Source: an uncultured Gammaproteobacteria bacterium
Lineage (GTDB): Bacteria > Pseudomonadota > Gammaproteobacteria > Nitrosococcales > Methylophagaceae
Direction: 5' to 3'
Length of the DNA: 64,000 nt
Assembly (NCBI GenBank): GCA_937900515.1
Contig: CALCCU010000113.1
Span: 1-64,000 of the forward strand
Shown piece after piece: positions 17,492-34,443 of the stretch. The translations under genes were made by a program, and so were the position numbers. The notes beneath the pieces were generated by a model. That model was not told the DNA's origin. It saw only the letters and a program-made list of their open reading frames with translations, and ran no database searches. How positions within the stretch are numbered: position 1 is the first letter of the stretch; every line of letters starts with the position of its first letter.

Positions 17492-18511
17492 ATGGCTGTT
17501 CAAGACATACTCTCACAAGATGAAGTTGATGCTCTGCTTAACGGCATGGGTGGCGATGAAATAGAGACCGACGTTGAGGTCGAGGATGATGGTTCTGCTC
17601 GCGAATATAACTTCGGTAATGAAGATCGCATCATCCGTGGGAGAATGCCTACTCTAGAGATGATCAATGAACGTTTTGGTCGTTATCTCAGAATAAGTCT
17701 ATTCAATATGCTACGCCGCTCTGCTGAGATCTCAGTGGGTGGTGTACAGGTAATGAAATTCTCAGAATATATTCATACCCTTTTCGTCCCTACTAGTTTA
17801 AATATTTTTCAAATGCAACCGCTTAGAGGATCTGGCTTAATCGTATTTGAACCTAAATTAGTATTCACGATTTTAGATAATTATTTTGGTGGTGAAGGAC
17901 GCTTCCAGGCACGTATCGAAGGTCGTGAATTTACGGCAACAGAATTACGCGTTATCAATATGGTATTGATGACGTGTTTCAAAGATTTAACTGAAGCCTG
18001 GTCTCCAGTAATGGATATGCATTTTGAATTTATAAACCACGAGGTTAACCCACAATTTGCTAATGTGGTCAGTCCAAGTGAAGCGGTTGTTATTTCAACT
18101 TTCCATATTGAACTTGAAGGTGGCGGCGGCGATATTCACGTCACACTGCCTTACTCAATGATCGAGCCTATCAGAGAGTTACTTGATACAGGTATCCAAA
18201 CTGACAGTTCTTCTGATGATAGCCGTTGGAAAACATCGATGCGTGAAGAAGTATTATTAGCCGATGTCAATATGGCGGCAGATCTAACTGAGATTCAAAT
18301 GAGTCTAAAAGAAATCCTTAACTTAAAAATAGGTGATATTTTACCCATTGATATGCCTAAAACTGTTGTCACTAAAGTGGAAGGTCTGCCTATGTTCCAA
18401 GCAACATTTGGTGAGCATAAAGATAAAGTCGCATTGAAAATTACCAATTTAATAGAACACCCTAAAGACACAACGCCTCAATTTACCGTGAGACGAAGCA
18501 AAGAGAGTTAG
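17492..18511 (+). CDS. fliM: Flagellar motor switch protein FliM
   Basis: A 339-residue C-ring protein. The N-terminal peptide ILSQDEVDALLNGM (about 6-19) is the CheY-P binding site. The middle domain (about 50-230) carries the conserved GGVQ segment, and the C-terminal SpoA domain (about 250-320) packs with FliN. Length is normal. The downstream fliN starts after 2 bases. Confidence 0.97.
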   Translation: MAVQDILSQDEVDALLNGMGGDEIETDVEVEDDGSAREYNFGNEDRIIRGRMPTLEMINERFGRYLRISLFNMLRRSAEISVGGVQVMKFSEYIHTLFVPTSLNIFQMQPLRGSGLIVFEPKLVFTILDNYFGGEGRFQARIEGREFTATELRVINMVLMTCFKDLTEAWSPVMDMHFEFINHEVNPQFANVVSPSEAVVISTFHIELEGGGGDIHVTLPYSMIEPIRELLDTGIQTDSSSDDSRWKTSMREEVLLADVNMAADLTEIQMSLKEILNLKIGDILPIDMPKTVVTKVEGLPMFQATFGEHKDKVALKITNLIEHPKDTTPQFTVRRSKES

Positions 18512-22309: not shown

Positions 22310-24391
22310 ATGGAAAATAACGATATTCTTGCCCGACTAAAAGCATTTGCGAATGGTGGCTTAGCGGCTCCTATCGCGCTTATTGCGCTACTTTCGATGG
22401 TAGTACTCCCTCTTCCTCCTTTTATGCTGGATATGCTGTTCAGTTTTAATATTGCACTATCTCTTGTCATTATGTTGGCAAGTATCTATGTTCTAAAACC
22501 ACTTCACTTTGCTGCTTTTCCTAGCATACTTCTCATTGCGACCTTATTACGCTTAGCACTTAACGTGGCTTCAACGCGTGTCGTGTTATTAGAAGGTCAC
22601 ACGGGTACAGGAGCGGCAGGTAATGTAATTGAAGCCTTTGGTGAATTTGTTATCGGTGGTAACTACACGGTAGGTTTCGTTGTATTTGCCATCCTAGTCA
22701 TTATCAACTTTGTGGTAGTAACCAAAGGTGCGACCCGTATTGCGGAAGTGAGTGCTCGATTCACTTTAGACTCTATGCCTGGTAAACAAATGGCGATTGA
22801 TGCCGATTTAAATGCCGGTTTAATTGATCAAGACCAAGCACGTGCTCGACGTGAAGAAATTATGCAAGAGTCTGATTTCTATGGTTCTATGGATGGTGCC
22901 AGTAAGTTTGTTCGTGGTGATGCTATTGCTGGTATTTTGATCTTAATAATAAATATTGTCGGTGGTTTTATTATAGGCGTTGCTCAACATGATTTAAGCT
23001 TTGCTGAAGCGGCTCATAACTACACTTTATTAACTATTGGTGATGGTCTCGTTGCTCAAATCCCTTCTCTATTGCTCGCCACTGCAGCAGGTTTATTAGT
23101 TACTCGTTCTACCAAAGAACAAGATATGGGTGACCAAATTGTTGCTCAGCTGTTTAAAGAGCCTAAAACGCTAGCGATTACTTCTGCAATATTAGGTGGA
23201 ATGGGACTTATCCCAGGTATGCCAAACCTACCTTTTTTAATCCTTGCCATAGCTGGCGGTACCGCTGCATGGATGATTGCTGAACGTCAAAAACTCGCCA
23301 ATACAGTAGCTGAGGTTACACCTGAACAAACAGAGGCACCTAAAGAACAGCGTGACCTAGGCTGGGAAGATCTATCCCCCGTTGATCCAATTGGTTTAGA
23401 AGTTGGCTACCGCCTTATTCCCCTGGTAGATAAAAATCAAGGTGGTCAATTAATGAATAGAATCAAAGGTATCCGTAAGAAGATTTCCCAAGAACTTGGA
23501 TTTCTTATTCCCCCTGTCCACATTAGAGACAACCTTGATTTATCGCCTACCGCTTACCAAATCACCCTATTCGGCGTTACTTTTGGTGAAGCCGAGGTCT
23601 ATCCAGAGCGCATGATGGCTATAAATCCTGGTCAAGTTTTTGGCGAATTAGATGGCATAAAAGGCCAAGACCCAGCATTTGGATTAGATGCTGTATGGAT
23701 CGAGCCAAATCAACGTGAACATGCACAAGCACAGGGTTATACTGTTGTCGATGTCGACACCGTTATTGCTACTCATCTAAGTAAGATTTTACAGAATCAT
23801 GCTCATGATTTATTAGGCCGAGAAGAAGTCCAACAACTACTTGATAATCTTGCTAAAACAGCCCCTAAATTAGTCGAAGGTTTAGTACCAGATGCCCTGC
23901 CTTTAGCAACCGTTCAACGTGTACTGCAAAACTTATTAGAAGAGAACATTCCTATCCGTGATGTTCGCACGATTACTGAAGCATTATCAGAACAAGCTGC
24001 TCGTAACCCTGATCCAGAAGCACTTACTGCTGCAACCCGCATGGAGCTTAGCCATTCTATTATTCAACACGTTAATGGTATCAAGGCTGATTTACCGATT
24101 ATTACGCTAGACCCAGAACTGGAACAGATATTGCTTCAAACACTACAAGCTACCGGAGATGGTGGCGCTAGTTTAGAACCAGGATTAGCTGAAACTATGC
24201 ACAAGAATCTACAAGAAGCGACACAACGACAAGAAATGTCTGGTGAATCAGCCATTCTGGTCGTACAAGCAGGTTTACGTACATGGATTTCTCGCTTCAT
24301 ACGGCACTCTATTCCAAGCTTAAATGTCTTGTCGTATAACGAGATACCTGATAACAAACAAATAAGAATTGTTGCTAACGTTGGTCGTTAG
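22310..24391 (+). CDS. flhA: Flagellar export protein FlhA
   Basis: A 693-residue protein with about eight N-terminal membrane helices (up to about 325) and a large cytosolic domain that forms the nonameric docking ring for substrates and chaperones. The FHIPEP-type signature region (about 147-170, GATRIAEVSARFTLDSMPGK) is present. Starts 1 base after flhB ends. Length normal. Confidence 0.97.
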   Translation: MENNDILARLKAFANGGLAAPIALIALLSMVVLPLPPFMLDMLFSFNIALSLVIMLASIYVLKPLHFAAFPSILLIATLLRLALNVASTRVVLLEGHTGTGAAGNVIEAFGEFVIGGNYTVGFVVFAILVIINFVVVTKGATRIAEVSARFTLDSMPGKQMAIDADLNAGLIDQDQARARREEIMQESDFYGSMDGASKFVRGDAIAGILILIINIVGGFIIGVAQHDLSFAEAAHNYTLLTIGDGLVAQIPSLLLATAAGLLVTRSTKEQDMGDQIVAQLFKEPKTLAITSAILGGMGLIPGMPNLPFLILAIAGGTAAWMIAERQKLANTVAEVTPEQTEAPKEQRDLGWEDLSPVDPIGLEVGYRLIPLVDKNQGGQLMNRIKGIRKKISQELGFLIPPVHIRDNLDLSPTAYQITLFGVTFGEAEVYPERMMAINPGQVFGELDGIKGQDPAFGLDAVWIEPNQREHAQAQGYTVVDVDTVIATHLSKILQNHAHDLLGREEVQQLLDNLAKTAPKLVEGLVPDALPLATVQRVLQNLLEENIPIRDVRTITEALSEQAARNPDPEALTAATRMELSHSIIQHVNGIKADLPIITLDPELEQILLQTLQATGDGGASLEPGLAETMHKNLQEATQRQEMSGESAILVVQAGLRTWISRFIRHSIPSLNVLSYNEIPDNKQIRIVANVGR

Positions 24392-27244: not shown

Positions 27245-27634
27245 TTGGATAAAGATATGAAAATTCTAATTGTGGACGATTTTTCGACCATGAGACGAAT
27301 TATAAAAAACTTACTTCGTGACTTAGGCTTTAGTAATACAGTAGAAGCTGATGATGGCCTAACTGCTTTACCCATATTACAAGCGGGAGGAATAGATTTC
27401 CTCGTTACCGACTGGAATATGCCTGGCATGCAGGGTATTGATTTGCTGAAAGCTGTTCGTGCTGATGAAAAGTTATCGAATATACCTGTTTTAATGGTAA
27501 CCGCTGAAACCAAACGTGAGCAGATTATCGTTGCCGCTCAGGCTGGTGTTAATGGTTATGTTGTTAAGCCTTTTACCGCTGCGACTTTAAAGGAAAAAAT
27601 CGACAAGATTTTTGAACGTATTGACGCACAATAA
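27245..27634 (+). CDS. cheY: Chemotaxis response regulator CheY
   Basis: A 129-residue single receiver domain with the acidic pair Asp11/Asp12, phospho-acceptor Asp56 (VTDWNMPG), the MVTAET switch threonine and the VVKPFT lysine. Phosphorylated CheY binds FliM to alter motor rotation. The start is TTG at 27245: GGGGAGGA lies 6 bases upstream, while the ATG at 27257 would be badly placed. 15 bases to cheZ. Confidence 0.97.
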
Positions 27635-27649
27635 CTACTGAGGCTTACC

Positions 27650-28384
27650 ATGGAACTAAACAAAACAGAACAACTCGAAGCAGCAAGAGCGCTCATTGCC
27701 GCCATAGAGTCTGATAATAATGAACAAGCTCAACAACAATTAACAATCCTGACTCAAACGCAAGAAAGTGCGCTGTTCAATGAAGTTGGCAAGCTCACAC
27801 GTGAGTTACATGAGTCAATGAGTAACTTTAACCTCGATTCACGTCTAATTGATTTAACTAAAAATGATATGCCTAATACACGTGAACGACTTAACTATGT
27901 CATCACAACTACAGAAGCAGCAGCACATAAAACATTAGGCTTCATAGATCAGACTCTTCCCCTTGCCTCTGAACTTAAACAAACCGCTGAAAATATAAAC
28001 GAAAGTTGGCACCGTTTTCGCATGAAAGAAATGACTGCTGATGAGTTCCGTGCATTAAGCAAAGAGATAGAAGCCTATTTGCCAGAAGTGACTAATCACT
28101 CTGAACAAATTCATGCCAACCTATCAGAAATGATGATGGCACAAGGTTTTCAAGATCTAACAGGACAAGTTATTCGCCAAGTAATTAGTTTGGTGGAAGA
28201 AGTAGAAGACAGTTTAGTTCAACTCGTTAAGATTGCTGGCAAGCATATTGATGAGCAACCAAAGAAAGACAAACAGGTTGATGCAGTCAAGGCCGAAGGC
28301 CCACAGATTAATGCTGCAGACAACCCAAATGTTATGAATGATCAAGATGAGGTCGATGATTTGTTATCAAGTCTAGGCTTCTAA
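27650..28384 (+). CDS. cheZ: CheY-P phosphatase CheZ
   Basis: A 244-residue, mostly helical protein. The active-site helix is visible as MMMAQGFQDLTGQVIRQV (Asp and Gln within QDLTGQ), and the C-terminal peptide DEVDDLLSSLGF (233-244) is the CheY-binding tail. CheZ speeds removal of phosphate from CheY. Lies between cheY and cheA as in Pseudomonas and Vibrio. Confidence 0.96.
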   Translation: MELNKTEQLEAARALIAAIESDNNEQAQQQLTILTQTQESALFNEVGKLTRELHESMSNFNLDSRLIDLTKNDMPNTRERLNYVITTTEAAAHKTLGFIDQTLPLASELKQTAENINESWHRFRMKEMTADEFRALSKEIEAYLPEVTNHSEQIHANLSEMMMAQGFQDLTGQVIRQVISLVEEVEDSLVQLVKIAGKHIDEQPKKDKQVDAVKAEGPQINAADNPNVMNDQDEVDDLLSSLGF

Positions 28385-28396
28385 AGGATAGCAATA

Positions 28397-30430
28397 ATGG
28401 CGTTAGACACTGATGATGAAATCCTACAAGACTTTTTAGTCGAGGCAGAGGAAATATTAGAAGGCTTGAATGAGCAACTGGTTGAACTCGAAACTCAGCC
28501 TCAAGATAGTGACCTACTCAACTCTATTTTCCGTGGATTTCATACGATTAAAGGTGGCGCAGGCTTTTTAAGCCTTGATGCCATGGTGACCTTATGTCAC
28601 AAATGTGAAGATCTATTTAATCTTCTCCGCCAAGGTGATCGTAGTGTCGATGCTAATATGATGGATACCTTTTTAAAGGTACTCGACATATTAAATACCA
28701 TGTTCGAAGAAACTAAAGCGGGAGAATATCCAACCGCTGCTGATCCAGAAATCATTAATCAGCTTGCTCACTACCTAGATCCTAATGCCGCTCCTGCTGC
28801 AGCTCCTGAGGTACCTAAAGAACCTGAACCTGAGCCAGAACCAGTTATTGCAGAACCAGCTCCTGTAGAAAACAGTGCTGACCCAGCAAGTGATGATATT
28901 ACCGATGAAGAGTTTGAAGCATTACTCGATCAGCTCCATGGTGATGGGGCCCCAGGAATATCAAGTACACCCGAACCAGAAAAAGCCCCTGCACCAGCAC
29001 CCGCTGATAATGACGATATTACTGAAGAAGAATTTGAAGCATTATTAGACGAGTTACAAGGTAAAAAGAAAGCGGCCAGCACAGAAACGCCTAAAGAAGA
29101 AGTTGCTAAGCCTACTACTCCTGCTGTTGAAAAGGTGGAACCTACACCGACACCTGCAGAGCCTGTGAAAAAAGCAGAGCCTCCCAAACAAGAATCTACT
29201 CCAGCTGCTGAGAAGAAACCAACAGCAACGGCAAAACCTGCCGCCGCCGCGAAGCCAGCGGAAACAACTGTCCGAGTTGATACTGCCCGTTTAGATGACA
29301 TAATGAATATGGTGGGTGAATTAGTGCTAGTTCGGAATAGGATTAGTACGCTTGAAACTGCTTTTGAAGATGAAGAAATGGCTAAAGCAGTTAATAACTT
29401 AGCTGTCGTTACAGGTGATTTACAAACAGCTGTAATGAAAACACGGATGCAACCCATCAAAAAAGTATTTGGTCGCTTCCCTCGTGTTGTTCGTGACTTA
29501 GCCCGAACCTTGAAAAAAGATATTAACCTTGAATTGCGCGGTGAAGAAACTGATTTAGATAAAAATTTAGTTGAGGCGCTAGCGGATCCTTTAGTGCATT
29601 TAGTTAGAAATGCTGTTGACCATGGTATTGAAATGCCTGATGTCCGTGAGGCAGCGGGAAAACCGCGCCAAGGACATGTAGTTTTAGGTGCAGCACAAGA
29701 AGGTGACCATATCCTACTAACCATCTCAGATGATGGTGCAGGAATGGATGCCAATGTCTTGCGTCAAAAAGCTGTCGAAAAAGGCATGATGGATGAGGAA
29801 TCAGCATCTCGTTTAACCGACTCTGAAAGCTATGCGCTTATTTTCGCTCCTGGTTTTTCAATGAAACAAGAGATCTCTGATATTTCAGGTCGTGGTGTTG
29901 GTATGGATGTTGTGAAAACCAGCATTTCAAAACTCAATGGTGTGATCGATATTCAATCTGATCTCGGAATAGGAACAGTTCTTTCAATCAAAGTTCCTCT
30001 CACACTCGCTATCATGCCAACTCTAATGGTTATGTTAGGTGATCAGATTTTTGCCTTCCCTCTTGTTAGTGTCAATGAAATCTTTCACTTAGATCTTAGC
30101 AAAACAAATGTCGTCGATGGTCAGAAAACTATTATGGTTCGTAATAAAACTCTACCACTCTTCTATTTAAGAGAGTGGTTAACGGACACATTTAACGATA
30201 CAGGAAAACCTGATATTGAACATGTGGTTATCGTAAATGTAGGTACTCGACGCGTTGGCTTTGTTGTCGATCAGTTAATTGGGCAAGAAGAAGTAGTCAT
30301 AAAACCTTTAGGCGCTTTATTACAAGGTACTAAAGGGCTCGCAGGTGCTACAATTACAGGCGACGGGCGAATCTCACTTATTCTTGATTTTCCTGAGTTG
30401 ATGGCTTCCTACGCAAATAGAGGATATTAA
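28397..30430 (+). CDS. cheA: Chemotaxis histidine kinase CheA
   Basis: A 677-residue kinase: HPt domain (about 1-110) with phospho-His49 (FHTIKGGAGF), a long Pro/Ala/Glu linker (about 130-285), dimerisation domain (about 288-355), ATPase domain (about 355-540; NAVDHGIE, DDGAGMD, GRGVGMDVV) and CheW-like P5 domain (about 540-677). No ordinary CheY/CheB-binding P2 domain is evident. Instead the linker has two copies of an acidic motif, DDITxEEFEALLDxL, at 166-180 and 206-220. It couples receptors to CheY and CheB. Confidence 0.97.
   Translation: MALDTDDEILQDFLVEAEEILEGLNEQLVELETQPQDSDLLNSIFRGFHTIKGGAGFLSLDAMVTLCHKCEDLFNLLRQGDRSVDANMMDTFLKVLDILNTMFEETKAGEYPTAADPEIINQLAHYLDPNAAPAAAPEVPKEPEPEPEPVIAEPAPVENSADPASDDITDEEFEALLDQLHGDGAPGISSTPEPEKAPAPAPADNDDITEEEFEALLDELQGKKKAASTETPKEEVAKPTTPAVEKVEPTPTPAEPVKKAEPPKQESTPAAEKKPTATAKPAAAAKPAETTVRVDTARLDDIMNMVGELVLVRNRISTLETAFEDEEMAKAVNNLAVVTGDLQTAVMKTRMQPIKKVFGRFPRVVRDLARTLKKDINLELRGEETDLDKNLVEALADPLVHLVRNAVDHGIEMPDVREAAGKPRQGHVVLGAAQEGDHILLTISDDGAGMDANVLRQKAVEKGMMDEESASRLTDSESYALIFAPGFSMKQEISDISGRGVGMDVVKTSISKLNGVIDIQSDLGIGTVLSIKVPLTLAIMPTLMVMLGDQIFAFPLVSVNEIFHLDLSKTNVVDGQKTIMVRNKTLPLFYLREWLTDTFNDTGKPDIEHVVIVNVGTRRVGFVVDQLIGQEEVVIKPLGALLQGTKGLAGATITGDGRISLILDFPELMASYANRGY
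28892..29062 (+). repeat. Two-copy acidic motif in the CheA linker
   Basis: Residues 166-182 and 206-222 of CheA are the same motif (D-D-I-T-x-E-E-F-E-A-L-L-D-x-L-x-G), 40 residues apart, in otherwise low-complexity Pro/Ala sequence. The core E-A-L-L-D/D-A-L-L-N resembles the CheY-binding peptide of FliM and the CheZ tail encoded in the same window. Confidence 0.85.
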
Positions 30431-30437
30431 ATTCCCT

Positions 30438-31475
30438 GTGACACTTCGTGTACTGATTGTTGATGATTCGAGATTCTTTCGTAGACGGCTGTCCGAAATA
30501 ATCTCAATAGATCCTCTTATTTCTGTTGTTGGGATGGCTGAAAATGGTCAGCAAGCAATTGACCAAGTGAAACAGTTAAAGCCTGATGTCATCACTATGG
30601 ATATTGAAATGCCGGTGATGAATGGCATCGATGCTGTTAAGGCAATCATGGCTAGCCATCCTACTCCAATTTTAATGCTCTCAACTTGGTCTACTGATGG
30701 AGCCAAAGCAACATTAGAGGCATTAGAGGCTGGCGCTGTCGACTATATGCCCAAACGGTTCGAAACTATCTCAACAGACAGTTCTGTTGTTCATCATGAG
30801 CTATGCCAGCGTCTTAGAAAATTAGCACGTTCTAAAGTTGTAACGACTCATACCTCTCCCTCTCCTGCCCAACGCATCACTCCAGTATTTAAGTCAGCTA
30901 AGAAACAATCGCTTAGTTTAGTTGTTATTGGAACCTCAACGGGCGGCCCTATCGCTTTACAAAAAGTATTAACTCAACTGCCTGCAAGCTTTCCTTACCC
31001 AATTCTACTTGTTCAACATATGCCAGCAACATTTACCCCTTCTTTTGCTGAACGGTTAGACAAGCAATGTAATATTAAGGTGAAGCATGCTGAAAATGGA
31101 GATATCTTAACGGCAGGTACTGCTTATCTTGCTCCTGGTGGAACACAGATGACTCTAAAGGCGGATGGTCAAAAGAGGTATCTTAAAGTTCAAAGTGGGC
31201 AAGCAAGTGAATCTTATAAACCTTGTGTTGATATCACTCTTGAGTCTGTAAAAAACGACTGCCCGAAAGAAACCTTAGCAATTATTCTCACAGGAATGGG
31301 ATCCGATGGGTTAATTGGTTGCAAACATCTCAAAGAATTAGGTGGCACAATTTGGGCTCAAAATGAACAGAGCAGTACAATCTACGGTATGCCAAAAGCA
31401 ATTGTGGATGCAGGTATAGCGGAAAGAATCTTAGATATTAATGAGATAGGTCATCATCTAGCGGAGCTTAAGTAG
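30438..31475 (+). CDS. cheB: Chemotaxis methylesterase CheB
   Basis: A 345-residue protein with an N-terminal receiver domain (about 1-120; phospho-Asp in TMDIEMPVMNG) and a C-terminal methylesterase domain (about 160-340) with Ser in GTSTGGP, His in VQHMPATFTPSFAERL and Asp in GMGSDG. It removes methyl groups from chemoreceptors for adaptation. Start is GTG at 30438, with AGAGGA about 13 bases upstream. CheR is not in this window. Confidence 0.96.
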   Translation: MTLRVLIVDDSRFFRRRLSEIISIDPLISVVGMAENGQQAIDQVKQLKPDVITMDIEMPVMNGIDAVKAIMASHPTPILMLSTWSTDGAKATLEALEAGAVDYMPKRFETISTDSSVVHHELCQRLRKLARSKVVTTHTSPSPAQRITPVFKSAKKQSLSLVVIGTSTGGPIALQKVLTQLPASFPYPILLVQHMPATFTPSFAERLDKQCNIKVKHAENGDILTAGTAYLAPGGTQMTLKADGQKRYLKVQSGQASESYKPCVDITLESVKNDCPKETLAIILTGMGSDGLIGCKHLKELGGTIWAQNEQSSTIYGMPKAIVDAGIAERILDINEIGHHLAELK

Positions 31476-32226: not shown

Positions 32227-33117
32227 ATGGCACGCAGAAAAAAAGTTGAGGAACACGTTAATCACGAGCGATGGTTAGTATCCTATGCTGACTTTATTAC
32301 ACTGCTCTTCGCTTTTTTTGTGGTTATGTATTCCATATCTTCCGTTAACCAAGGTAAATATCGAGTTTTATCTGATTCTTTAGAGGCTACATTTGCCGAT
32401 CCACGTCGTTCTATTGATCCAATCCAAATTGGTGAAGTTGAGCGTGGCCTTACCGAAAGAACTCCCAAAAACAATCCGAAAGATGTTGCAGACTCTGAGG
32501 CTATTGAGGTATTCACAGAGCCTCCCGTTTCAGAACAAACCATTGAAACTATTAATGAAATAAGTAAAAAATTAAACTATTCGTTAAAAAACTTAATTGA
32601 TCGAGAAGACGTTAATATCAAACAAGGTGAAGATTGGCTAGAGTTAGAAATGAAGTCTAATGTTCTCTTTTACAGTGGTGAAGCAAGGTTAGAAAATAGT
32701 GCTGTCCCAATTATTGGTAAAGTGGCAGATATATTGCGAGATTCAGCTAACCCAATCCAAGTAGAAGGGTTTACTGATAATAACCCGATCAATACCTCCC
32801 GCTTTCCATCAAACTGGGAGCTTTCTGCTGCACGTGCGGCCAGCGTAGTACACTTACTAGACCGATATGGCTTAGAGCCGCATAGGATGTCAGCAATAGG
32901 TTATGGTGAATTCAAACCTATCGCAGATAACAATACGATAGAGGGCCGACAACAAAATCGTCGAGTCGTGCTTGTTGTATTAGGAGGGCAGCATAGTCGC
33001 CGCGATATAGAAGTATTTACTCCTACTCAAAAAATTAATCCAGTAGTACCTCCTATGCGAGCTCCTACTATACAATCCAATGTTCAAACACAACCACGTT
33101 CAGGGACAACACCATGA
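32227..33117 (+). CDS. motD: Flagellar stator protein MotD (MotB family)
   Basis: A 296-residue protein with a short cytosolic N terminus, one membrane helix (about 21-40) bearing the ion-carrying Asp in VSYADFITLLFAFF, a linker, and a C-terminal OmpA-like peptidoglycan-binding domain (about 125-255; VEGFTDNNPI...NWELSAARAASVV, with GRQQNRRV). It anchors the MotC channel to the cell wall. Overlaps the ParA-like gene by 4 bases. Confidence 0.95.
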   Translation: MARRKKVEEHVNHERWLVSYADFITLLFAFFVVMYSISSVNQGKYRVLSDSLEATFADPRRSIDPIQIGEVERGLTERTPKNNPKDVADSEAIEVFTEPPVSEQTIETINEISKKLNYSLKNLIDREDVNIKQGEDWLELEMKSNVLFYSGEARLENSAVPIIGKVADILRDSANPIQVEGFTDNNPINTSRFPSNWELSAARAASVVHLLDRYGLEPHRMSAIGYGEFKPIADNNTIEGRQQNRRVVLVVLGGQHSRRDIEVFTPTQKINPVVPPMRAPTIQSNVQTQPRSGTTP

Positions 33118-33911
33118 CCATATGGGCAGTCGCCAATCAAAAAGGTGGTGTAGGTAAAACCACCACAGTAGTGAGCTTAGCAAGCCTATTAGCACAACAA
33201 GGAAAACCTACTCTCGTTTTAGATATGGATCCTCATGGTTCCTTGACCAGTTATTTTGGTCATGATCCTGACACTATCGATAATAGTATTTACACCTTAT
33301 TCCAAAAAATGGATTCAAGCCCAAACTCAGCCATTTTTAACTCCTTAAAGAAAACGAATTGCAGTAATTTATATTTGCTTCCAGCATCGACAGCAATGGC
33401 AACACTCGACCGCCAGCTAGGTGCCCAAGGTGGTAAAGGCCTAGTGATAAAAAAGACCCTAGCCATACTTAAAGATCGTTTTCCTAATATACTGATCGAC
33501 TGCCCTCCGATGCTTGGAGTGCTCATGATTAATGCATTAGCGGCCTGTGACCAATTACTTATCCCTGTTCAAACGGAGTTCTTAGCGCTAAAAGGTTTAG
33601 ATAGAATGCTACATACATTGAGTATGATTAATCATTCTCGTAGTCAAGGCCTTCCGTATCTAGTCGTACCGACTATGTATGATCAGCGTACTCGCTCATC
33701 AATACAAAGCCTTAAGAGCCTTAAAGAGGTTCATGGAACAGGGGTATGGGATAGTGTTATACCTATAGATACTCACTTTCGGGATGCAAGTAAAGCCGGA
33801 ATCCCATTGCCTGTAATGACCCCTAATTCACGTGGCTCAATTGCGTATTCTGAACTATTAGAATCATTAACCCACGCCGAACATAACCCAAAAGATTTAC
33901 CTCATGTCTAA
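33114..33911 (+). CDS. parC: ParA-like ATPase ParC, chemotaxis-array positioning
   Basis: A 265-residue Soj/ParA ATPase with deviant Walker A KGGVGKT (10-16), the DMDPHGSLTSYFG switch and the IDCPPMLGVL block. In Vibrio the ParA-like ParC recruits chemosensory arrays to the cell pole together with ParP and its receptor HubP. The place here, between motD and the CheW-like gene, is the same as in Vibrio and Pseudomonas, so chromosome partition is unlikely. Overlaps the next gene by 8 bases. Confidence 0.92.
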   Translation: MTIWAVANQKGGVGKTTTVVSLASLLAQQGKPTLVLDMDPHGSLTSYFGHDPDTIDNSIYTLFQKMDSSPNSAIFNSLKKTNCSNLYLLPASTAMATLDRQLGAQGGKGLVIKKTLAILKDRFPNILIDCPPMLGVLMINALAACDQLLIPVQTEFLALKGLDRMLHTLSMINHSRSQGLPYLVVPTMYDQRTRSSIQSLKSLKEVHGTGVWDSVIPIDTHFRDASKAGIPLPVMTPNSRGSIAYSELLESLTHAEHNPKDLPHV

Positions 33912-34443
33912 ATCAGATACTATTGCAGAGCATCAGTTAGCACTCTCTACCTATCTAGAGGATATGTTAACCGAAGTCGATCTCGTACCAGAAGAACAGC
34001 CAGGTTTCACTACAAATGAAGGTTGGAAACTATCACCTTTTCAAGCGCTACTTATTGATGTGCAAGGTCTACAACTCGCTATCCCTGAGCATCAGTTAGT
34101 TAATATTCAAATCGCCAATAAAGTCAGTGCAACACCTGAACAAAATTCAGATCAGCACTCAGTCACTATTAATCAAAAACTGACTATCATTGATACAGGC
34201 AAGGTAGTTCTACCTGAAGCGTATCGCGATGAAGATAATCAATCCGCATTTATTATTATTTTATCCGGGGAAAAGTGGGCTCTTGCATGCAATAAAGTGA
34301 ATGAGGTCATTACTTTATCACCTGATTCCGTCAGTTGGAGACAACAAGCAGGTAATAGACCATGGCTTGCTGGCACCATTTCTGAACATAAATGCGGTAT
34401 ATTGAATATTGATGCATTAATTGCACAACTAGAGCAAGCATAG
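33904..34443 (+). CDS. parP: ParP-like protein with CheW-like domain
   Basis: A 179-residue protein with a short acidic N-terminal region (about 1-45) and a degenerate CheW-like domain (about 46-178; FQALLIDVQGLQLAIPEHQLVNI ... AFIIILSGEKWALACNKVNEVITL ... WLAGTISEHKCGILNIDAL). In Vibrio ParP joins ParC to CheA and keeps arrays at the pole. Here the N-terminal part is much shorter than in Vibrio ParP. Name by synteny and domain content. Confidence 0.82.
   Translation: MSKSDTIAEHQLALSTYLEDMLTEVDLVPEEQPGFTTNEGWKLSPFQALLIDVQGLQLAIPEHQLVNIQIANKVSATPEQNSDQHSVTINQKLTIIDTGKVVLPEAYRDEDNQSAFIIILSGEKWALACNKVNEVITLSPDSVSWRQQAGNRPWLAGTISEHKCGILNIDALIAQLEQA

Follow-up and report, generated by a model that had tools for sequence, protein, structure and literature searches.

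How a CheA kinase that lacks the P2 domain delivers phosphate rapidly to CheY is unexplained, even though such kinases are common: a domain survey found P2 absent from over half of known CheAs, which instead have an extended unstructured region between P1 and P3 (PMC10782961). The word 'motif' is absent from that survey's text, and a recent Pseudomonas putida paper still names the region the CheY-binding (P2) domain (PMC11978298). The question is raised anew by a 64,000-nucleotide stretch of gammaproteobacterial DNA (hereafter the window), whose cheA carries two copies of a short motif in the P1–P3 linker. The features on which the analysis turns are as follows.

28397..30430, + strand: cheA, 677 aa, an F6-type chemotaxis kinase without P2 (Pfam)
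28418..28696, + strand: P1 (Hpt) domain of CheA (PF01627, residues 8-100)
28739..29263, + strand: P1–P3 linker of CheA, from the domain boundaries, with AF2 helices solely at residues 170-181 and 210-222
28892..28942, + strand: motif copy 1, DDITDEEFEALLDQLHG (translation, PSSM)
29012..29062, + strand: motif copy 2, DDITEEEFEALLDELQG (translation, PSSM)

Pfam assigns Hpt (8-100), H-kinase_dim (290-349), HATPase_c (397-536) and CheW (543-671) domains to the window CheA, and neither P2 nor a CheY-binding domain was found among its Pfam matches. The linker is rich in Pro, Ala and Glu and is predicted to be disordered except for both motif helices. Translation of 28892-29062 (+) yields DDITDEEFEALLDQLHGDGAPGISSTPEPEKAPAPAPADNDDITEEEFEALLDELQG, that is, DDITDEEFEALLDQLHGDGAPG...DDITEEEFEALLDELQG, which bears out the original prediction of two linker repeats 40 residues apart: the copies begin at CheA residues 166 and 206, a spacing of exactly 40. 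Within a 17-residue span 14 amino acids are identical, as are 40 of 51 bases; of the 14 positions with the same residue, 6 use a different codon, indicating that protein-level selection keeps both copies alike. These silent codon differences exclude a recent DNA duplication as the source of the copies.

Open reading frames and Pfam matches give the gene order fliA, cheY, cheZ, cheA, cheB, motC, motD, parC, parP, cheW around the kinase. This order fits that of F6-type flagellar chemotaxis, F6 being the class name that we take to apply to the window system. The neighbouring genes that bear on the function of the motif are listed here.

27245..27634, + strand: cheY, the proposed partner (PF00072)
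27650..28384, + strand: cheZ (PF04344, 249 bits)
30438..31475, + strand: cheB, an alternative partner via its receiver domain (PF01339 and PF00072)
33114..33911, + strand: parC-like ParA ATPase (PF13614 and gene order)
33904..34443, + strand: parP-like CheW-domain protein, 179 aa (PF01584; alignment of ParP proteins)

The window CheY is a close match to solved CheYs, some of these entries being CheY complexes. The window ParP (33904-34443) is short and has no counterpart of the long Pro-rich linker found in the Vibrio protein; its N-terminal helix is retained, as is the RPWLAG tryptophan, the invariant W154. Four genomes of the same genus (G002, G186, G192 and G195; 94-99% complete) gave no CheA match above the search threshold, possibly because the genus has lost chemotaxis more than once.

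We collected 223 CheAs with a measurable P1–P3 linker from searches of the class, the relatives and the phylum, from a scan of named genomes and from retrieved regions, and scored every linker with a PSSM built iteratively from CheA linkers, taking 4,460 shuffled linkers as the null. The motif was found in 132 of the 223 CheAs, these being all the close relatives of the window's CheA type, and in 358 copies altogether, with one copy in 10 CheAs, two in 37, three in 66 and four in 19. All but two copies (356/358) exceeded the best shuffled linker (10.42 bits), with a median real score of about 46 and scores of 51.5 and 44.0 for the window copies, a gap that is somewhat flattering because the PSSM was trained on the very linkers that it scored; the conservation is plain from the sequences themselves. 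The consensus reads I-[TS]-[DE]-[DE]-E-F-[ED]-A-L-L-D-x-L-H-G, and 357 of the 358 copies have the F. Spacing from copy to copy ranges from 27 to 68 residues (median 41), and the last copy ends 33-99 residues upstream of P3 (median 60). Between the window and relatives from the same genus, identity is 0.89 within the motif and 0.54 over the remaining linker. Carriers include Pseudomonas, Stutzerimonas, Marinobacter, Shewanella, Alteromonas, Photobacterium, Salinivibrio, Aeromonas, Dyella, Stenotrophomonas and Acidithiobacillus. The motif is conserved across polar flagellates, and nearly all Gammaproteobacteria CheAs of the window's type keep the motif in one to four copies.

Structure prediction points to the same segments. 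AF2 applied to CheA 1-293 without an alignment, and so used as a baseline only, gave the P1 helices and isolated helices at 170-181 and 210-222, which are the two motifs. A second AF2 job took the natural cheY–cheA read-through of a relative (L106), with 34 paired alignment rows, and predicted three motif helices with block pLDDT of about 79-84 and an upstream degenerate copy at 60, the linker outside the motif helices lying mostly below 50. Confidence was similar for all copies, and thus no copy was singled out as CheY-seated. A P2 fold was sought in this CheY–CheA read-through and none appeared, the linker forming short helices only. The expectation that the linker holds no classical P2 is therefore upheld by Pfam, by our own P2 profiles and by two AF2 models, and a cryptic P2 in window-type linkers is excluded by Pfam, profile-profile comparison and the same two models.

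Motif and P2 were not found in the same linker. Pfam P2/CheY-binding domains (PF07194/PF09078) matched 0 of 130 motif-bearing linkers versus 13 of 90 motif-less ones, and our own P2 profiles matched 0/132 versus 45/91; about half of the motif-less CheAs have neither element. At five loci (L121, L125, L203, L216 and L301) a motif-bearing and a P2-type CheA share a genome, each with its own element only. On a tree of the core domains three changes suffice to account for the motif, and motif-bearing CheAs form essentially one clade, so that the exclusion amounts to one or two evolutionary events; an independent-pairs test of the exclusion yielded too few pairs. The pattern is consistent with replacement of P2, short of proof. 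The motif occupies the same place between P1 and P3 as the P2/CheY-binding domain (PF07194, PF09078) and is proposed to provide the same docking of CheY or CheB near P1, but P2 is a folded domain whereas the motif consists of one to four short helical segments in a disordered linker, without a profile match. The architecture is that of the P2-less CheAs in the domain survey (PMC10782961), and the repeated motif adds content to their 'unstructured' region.

The case for CheY as the ligand began from a likeness to two other peptides encoded in the window.

17519..17548, + strand: FliM N-terminal peptide DEVDALLNGM, compared sequence (residues 10-19)
28346..28381, + strand: CheZ C-terminal peptide DEVDDLLSSLGF, compared sequence (ORF translation)

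FliM and CheZ peptides, and the P2 domain of E. coli, bind CheY on its alpha4-beta5-alpha5 face. In the window translation the CheZ C-terminus is DEVDDLLSSLGF, as had been stated, and DEVDALLNGM is present in FliM, although at residues 10-19 rather than at the very start of the protein. The CheA motif, FliM and CheZ share the ungapped pattern D-E-[FV]-[DE]-x-L-L-x-x-[LM], along with short helices and flexible ends. The CheA motif differs in having F at position 3, where FliM and CheZ have V or I, in carrying an extra I-[TS] before and HG after the shared pattern, and in being internal and repeated. A FliM/CheZ profile places the CheA copies at about the 98th-99th percentile against the best stretches of other proteins; the CheA profile places FliM and CheZ at about the 93rd. 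When the window proteins are ranked by the CheA profile, CheA comes first, FliM fourth and CheZ fifth, with FlhA and a small protein ahead of the latter two. The FlhA stretch (gene at 22310-24391, residues about 505-514) is a conserved EEVQQLLDNL, and its higher score is a warning against relying on resemblance alone. Over all loci, the best non-CheA match was DYFEALLDDL in a 189-aa Salinivibrio protein (L186:9596-10164) encoded directly after a ParC-like gene and probably carrying a ParP N-terminus. Other ParP N-termini read ALxxYLDxLLxE, which is motif-like, and this likeness might reflect a shared binding surface. The ungapped resemblance to FliM and CheZ is thus real, yet modest, being equalled or surpassed by FlhA and the ParP N-terminus, and we treat it as a lead, short of proof.

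We estimate a probability of about 0.5 that the repeats are helical docking motifs for CheY, and perhaps for CheB, in place of P2. As short docking helices on a flexible linker, they would hold CheY (possibly the receiver domain of CheB) near the phospho-histidine of P1, taking over the work of the absent P2, and several copies would lift the local concentration further. We infer CheY as the ligand, its alpha4-beta5-alpha5 face as the surface held and an effect on phosphotransfer. Where ParP is present, one copy, probably that nearest P3, may double as the ParP-binding LID. The original proposal that the repeats recruit CheY in lieu of P2 gains from the absence of P2, the conservation of the motif and the presence of CheY in every genome examined; it is weakened by the modest likeness to FliM and CheZ and by an exclusion that reflects roughly one event.

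The LID (localization and inheritance domain) itself offers another reading, which we consider unlikely on balance. This segment of CheA lies between P2 and P3 in Vibrio, binds the AIF domain of ParP and is described as confined to ParC/ParP systems (PMC5706961, PMC7534058). Were the repeats LIDs, their target would be the AIF domain of ParP, arrays would be tethered through it to a polar ParC anchor, and a CheY docking site would be unneeded. Like the motif, the Vibrio LID is a linker segment before P3; parC and parP lie close to the window cheA, ParP retains its invariant W154, and the linkers of ParP-bearing species show no other standout element on inspection. ParP-bearing genomes also carry more copies, with a mean of 2.94 (n=89) versus 1.93 in those without ParP (n=14; rank test p 7e-5, uncorrected for kinship), and the extra copies fit ParP using one of them. 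The motif, however, is wider than ParC/ParP systems. With a ParP model built from 15 proteins, no ParP match was found in G010, G147, G293, G131 or G172 (95-100% complete), all five of which keep the motif, as do nine further genomes with only weak, CheW-like ParP matches (G020, G152, G173, G052, G008, G024, G023, G001 and G095). This persistence excludes ParP as the sole reason for the motif and means that docking to ParP, an alternative first offered beside CheY, fails as a general explanation, although ParP may still use single copies. The motif may coincide in part with the LID described for Vibrio CheA; in the literature compared, to which the LID-defining paper did not belong, no text was found that gives or names the motif sequence.

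Other candidate partners are missing from some motif-bearing genomes as well. CheZ is absent in G020, G152, G086 and G131, and the motif is kept in each. A role mainly in docking CheB, which would draw the methylesterase to the array, is in keeping with the position of cheB directly after cheA and with CheB being found in 15 of the 16 genomes tested, and the P2 of E. coli binds CheB too; we nonetheless regard it as highly improbable, as G134 has no CheB match and retains one motif copy. CheY, by comparison, has its gene close to that of the motif-bearing CheA at the loci of genomes that lack a partner, and it is the sole never-missing partner among those first proposed, a comparison outside which CheW, receptors and CheA's own domains lie. 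CheW and CheA's own domains, which are always present, are the partners in a further reading, in which the motifs act inside the array by binding P1, P4 or P5 of CheA or CheW, for regulation or spacing, or self-associate as a SHOCT-like helix. SHOCT (PF09851) matches in Pfam reach E <= 0.01 in 111 of 130 motif-bearing linkers, but the first SHOCT helix is missing where inspected and scores fall under the curated cut-off: the window CheA reaches 20.0 bits and L064 23.9 bits against a cut-off of 27, over the second half of the model only, and SHOCT membership is rejected. Variable spacing (27-68 residues) and copy number also sit poorly with a fixed array geometry, and action within the array appears improbable. 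Least credible of all is that only composition is conserved, the motif being an acidic amphipathic helix without a specific partner. Acidic DExxALL helices are common, and other proteins score similarly to FliM and CheZ; against this, just one of the 358 copies lacks the F, and the L, L, D, L and HG positions are strongly conserved in many families within a fast-evolving linker.

If docking of CheY is the function, a wider scenario comes into view, which we hold tentatively and judge somewhat unlikely: a whole CheA class spanning most polar-flagellate Gammaproteobacteria would have swapped P2 for multivalent FliM/CheZ-like motifs, the kinase, motor and phosphatase would compete by way of related peptides for one face of CheY, and ParP would later have co-opted copies for polar inheritance. 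For P2-less CheAs, a conserved and repeated motif in a supposedly empty linker is a direct and mutable candidate for phosphate delivery in Pseudomonas, Shewanella, Vibrio relatives and xanthomonads. Mutants of its F and LL residues, in one to four copies, could separate CheY docking from ParP tethering.

Several linkers carry variants or elements of their own. In L106, L068, L091, L100 and others, an additional, degenerate copy (such as DEVDxEFDAMLDGA) comes first in the linker, nearer P1, and such first copies look more FliM-like than the later ones. The Tibeticola CheA linker (L249), scored as motif-less, contains EDLEALFNQTLDQVFGKGRAPG, which resembles a degenerate motif copy. P2-less CheAs of epsilon type (L205, L207, L208 and L235; Sulfuricurvum and Helicobacter) have their own P1–P3 linker motif, approximately DYxxMSxxEVEAEIERLL, which is repeated within Sulfuricurvum linkers. 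Beta-type P2-less linkers (L213, L214, L217, L218, L220, L222, L229 and L246) bear one short element, approximately PDWxALxxAxT, and alpha-type CheAs (L242, L284 and L309) have linker elements like [RP]LRPGEVSLDELERAF, two of them in L242 (Maricaulis).
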